Positions 12,222-15,849 of a DNA stretch of 64,000 nucleotides are shown here, piece by piece. Source of the DNA: Sulfurovum sp. AR (GTDB lineage Bacteria; Campylobacterota; Campylobacteria; Campylobacterales; Sulfurovaceae); the NCBI RefSeq assembly GCF_000296775.1, contig NZ_AJLE01000002.1, forward strand, positions 1 to 64,000. The letters are read 5' to 3'. Both the position numbers and the translations under genes were made by a program. Numbering within the stretch: the stretch's first letter is position 1; every line of letters starts with the position of its first letter. The notes beneath the pieces were generated by a model. The model made no database searches and was not told where the DNA came from. It was given only the letters and a program-made list of their open reading frames with translations.

Positions 12222-12659
12222 GTGTTTAAATTTTTAAAACGTAATATCATGAAAATGTTCAGAGAATTACTTGTATACCATCATAGTTCTTTAGAATATA
12301 GAGCAAAGATCCTTACCCTTATGGTCTCGGCGAATGGTGAGATCTGTGAATGTGAAAAACAAAAACTCAAAGAGATAGCACATAGCATCTATAGTGATGA
12401 TCATGAAAGAGCAGAACTTCTCATCGATACGGTCAATGAATACCATACAAAAATCGTAACCAACAACGGGCTGGATTTTGAGCATCTTATTATGTTGGTT
12501 GAAAATGAGACCAAAGAGGTACCCCGTTTTACATCAAAGATAGATATGGGACTTCTTATGCAACTGCATGAATGTATGGACAGTGAAGAGGATATACTGT
12601 TTCAACAACGTATTATAGAGTTTTTACAAGGTCTTAAGGACGAATATGGAATGGTATAG
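12222..12659 (+). CDS. TerB-like small acidic/helical protein
   Basis: From the GTG at 12222, with AAGGG 7 nt upstream, the product is about 145 aa. An upstream in-frame ATG at 12195 lacks a ribosome binding site. The sequence AKILTLMVSANGEICECEKQKL followed by helices resembles the TerB fold, which often carries acidic metal-binding loops, but the match is weak. It overlaps the acylphosphatase gene by 14 nt, so the two are co-translated. The function is unknown. Confidence 0.6.
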   Translation: MFKFLKRNIMKMFRELLVYHHSSLEYRAKILTLMVSANGEICECEKQKLKEIAHSIYSDDHERAELLIDTVNEYHTKIVTNNGLDFEHLIMLVENETKEVPRFTSKIDMGLLMQLHECMDSEEDILFQQRIIEFLQGLKDEYGMV

Positions 12660-12921
12660 ATTTATTATTTTTGGTAAAGTACAAGGTGTATTTTATCGCA
12701 AGTTTGTTTCTCAGGCTATGATGAAAAAACACTATAAGGGATACATACAGAACCTTGATGATGGTACAGTTGAGGTTGTCGCTGAAGTATTTGATGATGA
12801 TTTCAATACGTTTATGGCTATTTTGAATGAAGGATCACCATCGAGTTTGGTAGAGGATATCCAATATGAGATCATTGATGATGCAGAATTCACCACCGAT
12901 GGTTTTGAGATACGATATTAG
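12646..12921 (+). CDS. Acylphosphatase
   Basis: Hydrolyses acyl phosphates. The 91-aa length is typical. The active-site loop GKVQGVFYR (about 10-18, with catalytic Arg) and the Asn in GYIQNLDDGTVEV (about 36) are both present. It overlaps the upstream TerB-like gene by 14 nt. It ends 5 nt before the left arm of the inverted-repeat element. Confidence 0.88.
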   Translation: MEWYRFIIFGKVQGVFYRKFVSQAMMKKHYKGYIQNLDDGTVEVVAEVFDDDFNTFMAILNEGSPSSLVEDIQYEIIDDAEFTTDGFEIRY

Positions 12922-12926
12922 GATGT

Positions 12927-13194
12927 GAACCCTCCTGTATAACTATAGATACTCATAATGAGTTTTGCAAAGGTGAGATTTTGTAAGAGATTTACGTAGT
13001 CCTAGTTAAAGCTACGTCAAGTAAATATCTTGTGAAAGATTACTTTTGCAAAGTTCACCCTATGGGCAATACTAGCTTTACCTTATGTGTCGTTACTCAC
13101 TTTTGAATTAGCTTAGGCTAGTCCTGCAAGTGAGTGCCTAGCTTAAGAAAAAGCTAGTATAGTTAAGAATATCTATAGTTATACAGGAGGGTTC
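12927..13194. repeat. 268-bp element bounded by perfect 24-bp inverted repeats
   Basis: The arms 12927-12950 (starting GAACCCTCCTGTATAAC) and 13171-13194 are exact reverse complements over 24 bp. The interior holds further self-complementary pairs: ACTCAT-A-ATGAGT (12951-12963), ACGTAG/CTACGT (near 12993-13017), ATACTAGCTTT (13069-13079) with AAAGCTAGTAT (13150-13160), and nested ACTCACTT (13095-13102) with AAGTGAGT (13128-13135). No ORF lies inside. The right arm contains AGGAGGG, the ribosome binding site of the next gene, and the left arm contains its complement CCCTCCT. It could be an RNA element that sequesters the RBS, an invertible segment, or a MITE. I see no clear target-site duplication. 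Confidence 0.85.
13185..13191 (+). promoter_or_regulatory. Strong Shine-Dalgarno inside an inverted-repeat arm
   Basis: AGGAGGG ends 8 nt before the ATG at 13200. Its full complement lies in the left arm at 12930-12936, so a transcript that starts upstream of 12927 can hide it, while one that starts inside the element (for example from TATAGT at 13158-13163) cannot. Confidence 0.6.
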
Positions 13195-13199
13195 TTATT

Positions 13200-13397
13200 A
13201 TGAGCAGTGGATGGACATGTCAATATATGGGAACAAAAGGGGAAGAGAAAGAGTGGTGTATCAAACTTTCTCATAAGTGTGATCCTGGATGTAAAGGATG
13301 CGTCATTTACAATCAAGTGACATTTTCTGAGCCTAATATCTCTGAAGAACAACAGCGCAAGGTTAAAAAGCGCAGTGATAACCCTTTAAAAAAATAG
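13200..13397 (+). CDS. Small cysteine-rich protein, 65 aa
   Basis: The product has cysteines at 7, 20, 27, 31 and 34, including the cluster CDPGCKGC, and a highly charged C-terminal tail. No signal peptide is evident. The cluster suggests zinc or Fe-S binding; the family is not recognised. Translation depends on the AGGAGGG in the inverted-repeat arm, so expression is probably tied to the state of that element. Confidence 0.65.
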   Translation: MSSGWTCQYMGTKGEEKEWCIKLSHKCDPGCKGCVIYNQVTFSEPNISEEQQRKVKKRSDNPLKK

Positions 13398-13514: not shown

Positions 13515-14678
13515 TTAAAGACCTCTGGAGACAATAATGGCGATGGCCATCTGTTGTACCGCGAGGACGGAGTTTCGCGTTGCGAAAAGGTTCGCACTTT
13601 GAAACTGCTGTGTTGTGATAAAGGTATCGGCCACCATTCCGATATTGTCTGCCATGGCCAGGATGGTATCGCCCATCTCTCCAATCCGGTCGGCCATGAT
13701 ACCTATATCGGCTGAAAGCTGAAGCATACTGTTGAGCGAGTCTTCGAGTGTCGCTGTCGATGTTGTCGGCTCTAGCCCCTCGATCGCAATGACATAGCCG
13801 TCAACTGCCGTTGCGACAAAGGTCAGCATAGTCGACATGTCATAAAGCTGCATCATCGACGTACCATCGATATAAAGTGTGCCGTTTACCGCATCGTTCT
13901 TGATCGCGTTGCTGAGTGCCGTGACCTGTTGAAGAAAGCTCTTGACGTCATCTTCGACACCTTGTAGCTGGTAGTTCATTGTCCACGGGTTGAGCATCAC
14001 TGCGTGCATACGAGAGGAGAGTTCCATACCGTCAGCGACAAGCGCATTGTATTCAAGTTCACGCGTACTCGTCTCGACAACCGAGACCAGCGTCAATGCA
14101 TTGGTCTGTGTCTGTAGCAGGGTATCTATACTGGTGGTCATGTTCGCGCTCTGAATCTCCTGAGTCGTAATAATACGGTCAGCCATGATGTCAATATTGT
14201 CGGCCATGACAAGAATCTTGTCTGCCATCTCACTAATCCTGTCTGCCATCGTACCGATATCATCGGAGAGCTGAAGCATAGAGGTAATGCCGTCTTTGAT
14301 GGTCAGTACCGAGGCCGTATTCTCAAGTTTCTGCAGGTCAAGTGAGAGTCTCAGCGCTTCGTTTGCCATGCTCAGGTTTGTGACTGAAAGCAGTTCAATG
14401 GCATCGAGGATATCAGCATCGATCTGTAAAGGTGCAGAGAGGTTGTCATCGACAGCGCTGATGGCATTGACCATATCGCGTGCCTTTTGGTTGGCTTGTA
14501 CCAGCGGTGCACAGACAGAAGAGGCATTGAGCTCAAGTGTACTCAAATCACTTCTGAATGTTTCAGACTGAACAGCAAGGTCTTGCAGATCTTCCTTCAA
14601 GGCTGCGGCTGCGGGCATCCCCATAAAAAGCATAAAAACAGCGGCAGCGCCAATAAAGTTGTTCCATAATTGTTTCAT
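13515..14678 (-). CDS. Secreted Ile/Met heptad-repeat protein (paralogue 2)
   Basis: The start is set at 14678 (MKQLWNNFIGAAAVF), which gives a 387-aa protein with a clear signal peptide and AAGGAGA just upstream; a longer frame from 14705 lacks both. The mature protein has two similar halves, each containing SMLQLS followed by exact 7-residue units of the form D-x-I-x-x-M-A (DDIGTMA DRISEMA DKILVMA DNIDIMA). Ile and Met therefore alternate at coiled-coil a/d positions. It is a paralogue of the gene immediately upstream (16-nt gap). The function is unknown; an extracellular or periplasmic coiled-coil assembly is likely. The second half is more diverged (GMVADTF). Confidence 0.8.
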   Translation of the reverse strand: MKQLWNNFIGAAAVFMLFMGMPAAAALKEDLQDLAVQSETFRSDLSTLELNASSVCAPLVQANQKARDMVNAISAVDDNLSAPLQIDADILDAIELLSVTNLSMANEALRLSLDLQKLENTASVLTIKDGITSMLQLSDDIGTMADRISEMADKILVMADNIDIMADRIITTQEIQSANMTTSIDTLLQTQTNALTLVSVVETSTRELEYNALVADGMELSSRMHAVMLNPWTMNYQLQGVEDDVKSFLQQVTALSNAIKNDAVNGTLYIDGTSMMQLYDMSTMLTFVATAVDGYVIAIEGLEPTTSTATLEDSLNSMLQLSADIGIMADRIGEMGDTILAMADNIGMVADTFITTQQFQSANLFATRNSVLAVQQMAIAIIVSRGL

Positions 14679-14694
14679 TCGATTCTCCTTTTTC

Positions 14695-15849
14695 TTACAG
14701 TCCATAGGACTCGATGATGCCGACAGTGATATTTTGCGCAGTGGTCAGGGAATCGACAGTATAAGCCATGTTCGATGCCTGGATCCCTTCAACCTCGACG
14801 ATCCGCTGGCTCATCACACCGATATTGTCGGCCATGACGATGATCTTGTCACTCATCTCCATGATACGGTCACTCATCAGTTTGATATCCTGCACCAGCT
14901 TTAGCATGGAATTTGTGGCATCGGAAAGGACAGGCGTACTCGTTAGCGGAGCAAGCAGCTGCACGGTTTGTGCAAAATTTTCGGTACTCAAAGCCAGAGC
15001 CCTGTGAATCTCTGAGAGATCACTGAAATAGGTCAGCGTGTCACCATTGATATAGTGCGAAGCCACAGCACTGTTCATACTGACGAATGTGTAGAGGCTG
15101 ACGACTTGTCCCATCAACTGTGCAGACTGTACTTGTAGCTGGCTCAGTTCATCTGCCATATTCAAATTGGTCAGTATAGTCATCTGCATATCAGAATTAA
15201 GCTCATCGCCGTCCGATTGAATCTGTCCAAGGGTAAGGTTGTAGACAATCGACGAAAGAGAGCTGTTGAGTGCAGCCAGATTCTCCTGCGTCGTCAGCAG
15301 GGAAGTCTGAATGAACTGCATATTTGTGCTTTGCAGCGTAATGGTAAAGACGATTTTGTCCGCCATCGAACCGATATTGTCTGCCATGACCAAAATACGG
15401 TTAGCCATCTCTAGAATACGGTCTGCCATCGTACCGATATCGTCCGAAAGACGTAGCATTGCGCTGAGCCCGGCCCGGTATTCGAAAAGGTCGGCAACAG
15501 ATTCGATACTATTGAGCTCCAGCGCTAAACGGGCACTCTCTTGGGCCATGGATCTGCTGATGTTGCTTAGATCATCAAGTGATGTCATATCCTCCTGAGT
15601 CAAGCTCAGAGGCGAAGAGAGCTGCAGATAGATCGTCTCAATGCTTTCGATATATGTTTCAATAGAGGTGTTAAGTGTGCCTAGTTGGGAACAGTCATCT
15701 CCCTCATCAAAACTGAATGCAGAGAGGTTTGCATCGAGTGTATTTCCCTGGCTGACAAGACTCTGTAGACCAGTCGAAAATGACGCATGGGCATTAACCA
15801 TAAACAATACAAGCAGCAAAAATGATGATGCCAAATATTTTTTCAACAT
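14695..15849 (-). CDS. Secreted Ile/Met heptad-repeat protein (paralogue 1)
   Basis: This 384-aa protein has a signal peptide (MLKKYLASSFLLLVLF) and AAAGGAA before the ATG. Like its tandem paralogue it contains two copies of a block with D-x-I-x-x-M-A/S heptads: DDIGTMA DRILEMA NRILVMA DNIGSMA near residue 130, and DIKLMS DRIMEMS DKIIVMA DNIGVMS near 330. Outside the heptads the halves are helical and low in charge. No membrane anchor or known domain is visible. The gene pair is richer in G+C than its neighbours, which suggests separate ancestry. Confidence 0.8.
   Translation of the reverse strand: MLKKYLASSFLLLVLFMVNAHASFSTGLQSLVSQGNTLDANLSAFSFDEGDDCSQLGTLNTSIETYIESIETIYLQLSSPLSLTQEDMTSLDDLSNISRSMAQESARLALELNSIESVADLFEYRAGLSAMLRLSDDIGTMADRILEMANRILVMADNIGSMADKIVFTITLQSTNMQFIQTSLLTTQENLAALNSSLSSIVYNLTLGQIQSDGDELNSDMQMTILTNLNMADELSQLQVQSAQLMGQVVSLYTFVSMNSAVASHYINGDTLTYFSDLSEIHRALALSTENFAQTVQLLAPLTSTPVLSDATNSMLKLVQDIKLMSDRIMEMSDKIIVMADNIGVMSQRIVEVEGIQASNMAYTVDSLTTAQNITVGIIESYGL

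Follow-up and report, generated by a model that had tools for sequence, protein, structure and literature searches.

A MITE relic with IS5-type ends precedes a Cys-rich small-protein gene in Sulfurovum sp. AR and may supply and hide its ribosome-binding site

The Correia (NEMIS) elements, which are MITEs of Neisseria, resemble the Sulfurovum element described here in being small and non-coding, in possessing a conserved core as well as terminal inverted repeats, in lying beside genes and in forming stable RNA stems, and RNase III can cleave the Correia transcripts at these repeats (PMC10969869, PMC2649163). They differ in sequence and host; moreover, the ends of the Sulfurovum element match IS5-family elements with 4-bp duplications, and the Shine-Dalgarno of the following gene lies in one of its arms. 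MITEAba12 and similar IS-derived MITEs are likewise non-coding, have ends common to a full insertion sequence and show target duplications, found in 40% of the copies of MITEAba12 (PMC6382973). However, MITEAba12 is 111-114 bp long with 9-bp duplications and a weak predicted RNA structure, while the Sulfurovum element is about 265 bp long with 4-bp duplications, a very strong structure and two end types on one core. The CIR repeats of Caulobacter and Brucella are built of two long inverted-repeat arms and a linker, a layout similar to that of the two core hairpins, but they are listed without terminal inverted repeats (PMC2229807). Both end types of the Sulfurovum element are those of insertion sequences with an IS5-family transposase (transpos_IS5_4, NF033581), while the element itself has no transposase and none was found in the genome to which it belongs. 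A limited literature search revealed no published MITE whose end supplies a Shine-Dalgarno and no work combining MITE, RBS and IS5. The literature found to name both Sulfurovum and MITEs concerns REP repeats.

Structure and insertion site of the element

Analysis of the window, that is the whole 64-kb stretch of DNA, indicated that the arms at 12927-12951 and 13170-13194 are complementary without mismatch over 25 bp. The original prediction had described perfect inverted repeats of 24 bp; the repeat is real, its length is one base pair greater. Over the longer arms, 12927-12958 and 13163-13194, complementarity extends to 30 of 32 positions, and no second inverted repeat with perfect arms of 16 bp or more and a spacer of up to 400 nt occurs in the window. 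The interior proved to be structured and free of open reading frames of at least 40 amino acids, as had been claimed, and is made up of two long hairpins and a small CCC/GGG hairpin. Folding of the RNA from 12900 to 13230 gave -120.6 kcal/mol (z = -9.1), and none of the shuffled sequences was equally good. The features are listed in Table 1.

Table 1. Features of the element and of the genes on either side of it
Feature	Position	Strand	Basis or remarks
Acylphosphatase gene	12646..12921	+	TAG stop overlaps native Shine-Dalgarno remnant (TAGGA here, TAGGAG in close relatives)
MITE-like element, 268 bp, B-type (GAACCCTC...) ends	12927..13194	+	Homologous copies of like size with matching ends at many unrelated Sulfurovum sites
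Left terminal inverted repeat	12927..12958	+	Outer 25 nt perfect; holds CCTCCT (12931-12936), complement of the Shine-Dalgarno
Core hairpin 1	12960..13056	+	Consensus fold and pair counts, 58 copies
Core hairpin 2	13070..13159	+	Self-complementarity, consensus fold and pair counts
Right terminal inverted repeat	13163..13194	+	
AGGAGG Shine-Dalgarno within right arm	13185..13190	+	9 nt 5' of ATG 13200; sequence; opening cost computed
65-aa Cys-rich protein	13200..13397	+	Family unassigned; conserved beside acylphosphatase across Sulfurovum

The gene of the Cys-rich small protein is intact, and its product gave no Pfam, NCBIfam or PHROG match. In 19 relatives (in one of them the acylphosphatase end was located by visual inspection of the sequence) the small-protein gene lies directly 3' of the acylphosphatase gene, with a gap of 4-128 nt from which the element is absent. 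The closest of these empty-site relatives read ATTAGGAG...ATG, where ATTAGGAG overlaps the acylphosphatase stop and would act as Shine-Dalgarno, and the order in the window is ATTAGGATGT, then the element, then TTATTATG. Since the native AGGAG site overlaps the acylphosphatase stop in close relatives and the element now stands between this stop and the Cys-rich gene, comparison with the relatives shows that the insertion cut the gene from its native Shine-Dalgarno, which the right arm would have replaced. This arm reads CAGGAGGGTTC here, compared with the CAGAGGGTTC that is normal for B-type copies. The claim that the right arm supplies the Shine-Dalgarno of the Cys-rich protein, with its exact complement in the left arm, agrees with the positions found; the spacing to the ATG is a fact of the sequence, and use of the arm as the ribosome site of this gene is likely. 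The locus is a plain example of a mobile element that landed in a short gap between co-oriented genes, put its own ribosome site in the place of the native one and was apparently kept.

Two adjacent large proteins (396 and 384 aa) encoded on the - strand at 13515-15849 share similar repeated 'LSDDIGTMADRI' motifs; neither showed a Pfam family above cut-off, and they are probably tandem paralogues.

Copies, ends and source of the element family

The element is present as a single copy in its own genome, and copies were detected in 22 of the 60 relatives, almost all of them members of its genus, several of which carry about ten or more. Named records with the core motif were from Sulfurovum, Nitratifractor and Campylobacterota. 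The search for other copies and for empty sites, proposed along with the original prediction, gave the opposite of an outcome refuting a MITE. The usual length across the compared copies was 263-268 bp, and two end types were distinguished, GGGCACCTCTAATAACCC (A) and GAACCCTCTGAATAACC (B), the window copy being B-like with GAACCCTCCTGTATAAC. Both ends were intact in 119 compared copies, 100 of them with GGGCACCTCT (A-type) and 19 with GAACCCTCTG (B-type). Exact 4-bp target duplications were found in 58 of the 100 A-type copies, compared with 7% when ends were mispaired as a control, and 85 copies matched at 3 or more of the 4 bp; among the B-type copies 4 of 19 had an exact duplication. The window copy, with flanks ATGT and TTAT, shows no recognisable target duplication.

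Alignment of the copies revealed a mean identity of 86% in the cores and 64% in the terminal 30 columns. The cores of B-ended and A-ended copies were 91-96% identical, while their first 20 nt were 25-50% alike, position by position. This comparison suggests that the ends were swapped pairwise while the core was conserved. Such a pattern is the opposite of that expected of MITEs, and the family is therefore suited to testing how a non-autonomous element comes to use a different transposase.

Full insertion sequences of 1245-1350 bp bear both end types, the A-type in genomes G042 and G043 and the B-type in G024 and G027. Each of them encodes a DUF772 / DDE_Tnp_1 protein, and the two transposases tested, one per end type, were both above the NCBI cut-off for the IS5 family (transpos_IS5_4, NF033581). 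The shared ends suggest that the element was mobilised by an IS5-family transposase. Profile searches of the window's genome gave no DUF772, DDE_Tnp_1 or IS5_4 match, so that the window copy looks immobile. Among the three readings put forward originally, that of a MITE with an acquired regulatory role is the best fit: the MITE origin is borne out by the copies, the target duplications, the autonomous relatives and the empty sites, and the regulation is predicted. The segment is thus shown to be a MITE relic with ends of IS5 type, fixed and apparently unable to move, and we regard this origin as nearly certain.

Several related loci were also recorded. A 924-bp element of G024 (L098) with A-type ends was rejected as an intact source, as it looks like a decayed insertion sequence with transposase remnants. 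The single contig of G016 carries 25-27 A-type end matches per strand and no DUF772, DDE_Tnp_1 or IS5_4 transposase was found there, which leaves its elements with no local helper from these families. Elsewhere in the window's genome there are short B-ended elements, about 50-70 bp long. A 438-codon open frame has at its extreme end a 49-bp B-type mini element (L084, G000:C6:413227-413275), which appears to provide the TGA stop. In G042 (L288, G042:C31:4985-9785) the IS5-type end GGGAACCTCTAAAAACCC is present seven times on one strand at an exact spacing of 800 bp; the 800-bp units of this tandem array are 99.9-100% identical, being either an assembly artefact or a true array. The exact end of the window copy was also matched in G090, by chance, at a locus without similarity to the window region.

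Predicted hiding of the ribosome-binding site

In the read-through RNA the computed cost of opening the Shine-Dalgarno was 16-17 kcal/mol, and without the left arm it was 0.2-0.3 kcal/mol, the site then being open about 60-70% of the time. The element entered 3' of the acylphosphatase stop, with the native Shine-Dalgarno that overlaps it, and 5' of the start of the Cys-rich gene; according to the mechanism proposed, the right-arm site, at the right distance from the ATG, would then have come to serve this gene. On the operon transcript the left arm would pair with this site and translation of the small protein would be strongly lowered. Folding suggests that the site would be exposed in transcripts starting inside the element, and also once the stem is cleaved, as RNase III might do. 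Ribosomes finishing at the acylphosphatase stop might conceivably melt part of the stem base: with a ribosome covering up to 12936 the computed cost fell to 3.6 kcal/mol, and with coverage up to 12933 it was 10.7 kcal/mol. As the effect hinges on a few nucleotides, such coupling is speculative.

In the second genome of the species (G100) the element was found at the same place and in the same orientation. Substitutions between the window and G100 numbered 1 in 267 positions of the element versus 72 in 2623 (2.7%) of the flanks (P = 0.005; P = 0.02 when a one-base deletion was counted). The right arm of G100 has lost one G, with no matching change in the left arm. Since the element is less diverged than its flanks between these two strains, the comparison of this single genome pair suggests that the segment was kept or co-opted. 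A long leader RNA that hides the ribosome-binding site, another of the readings first offered, finds support in the modelled folding energies and in this low divergence; that hiding by the left arm acts as a meaningful control has about even odds. Among the other copies, none was found whose end carries the complete AGGAGG shortly 5' of a start codon, and the supply of a ribosome-binding site is therefore particular to the window copy. As a whole, MITE origin together with supply of the ribosome-binding site and its predicted hiding is the best explanation, with a probability of roughly 0.6.

The foremost alternative is a neutral MITE relic that offers a usable Shine-Dalgarno by chance, the pairing of its arms having no regulatory meaning, either because transcripts start 3' of the left arm or because the gene is dispensable. 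The family is evenly oriented relative to neighbouring genes (28 versus 28), B-type ends are inherently GAGG-rich outward, and the assemblies of some relatives gave no match to the small protein, all of which is consistent with neutrality; the same holds for the + strand of the element, on which the promoter scan gave no promoter-like site and no terminator-like site bearing on either view was seen. However, the element is about 7-fold less diverged than its flanks between the two strains and the small-protein gene is intact and conserved, and we consider neutrality the less probable explanation, though a serious one.

Covariation and the question of RNA function

Pair counts over 58 copies showed that 97.1% of the cells were paired and that 51 of the 96 pairs had changed on both sides, and none of 500 shuffles matched the real counts on any measure. 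These counts, together with cores more conserved than the ends and with the better folding of the + strand in 107 of 120 copies when single copies were folded, would be expected of a structured regulatory RNA, such as a riboswitch-like leader, that spread as a family and whose core structure was kept for an RNA function. On the contrary, consensus folding gave the same result on both strands (-105.2 vs -106.6), orientation relative to genes is unbiased, and the Rfam search of the element returned chance matches only, with nothing near the gathering score. Furthermore, template switching during DNA replication can give rise to paired hairpin arms and keep them matched in the absence of selection on RNA (PMC8794818). 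Because of the template switching, the equal consensus folds and the even gene orientation, support for the fold is not proof of RNA function, and a family of regulatory RNAs is very unlikely. The family offers a test of whether covariation in DNA palindromes arises from RNA selection or from template switching.

A broader proposal accommodates the exchange of ends: mobile Sulfurovum hairpin cores may swap ends between IS5-type specificities, so that more than one transposase could move one core, with the ends kept complementary by template switching and with one copy domesticated as a leader that both carries and hides a ribosome-binding site. This proposal is tentative, and we would not favour it as a complete account.

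An invertible promoter or on-off segment, in which a recombinase flips the DNA between the inverted repeats, had also been suggested, and although perfect inverted arms enclose about 220 bp next to a gene and one protein with a serine-recombinase domain is encoded elsewhere in the genome, this reading is very unlikely, as the promoter scan gave no + strand site inside the element and two - strand matches that are within chance, the arms are accounted for as transposon ends and the orientation is identical in both available genomes of the species.
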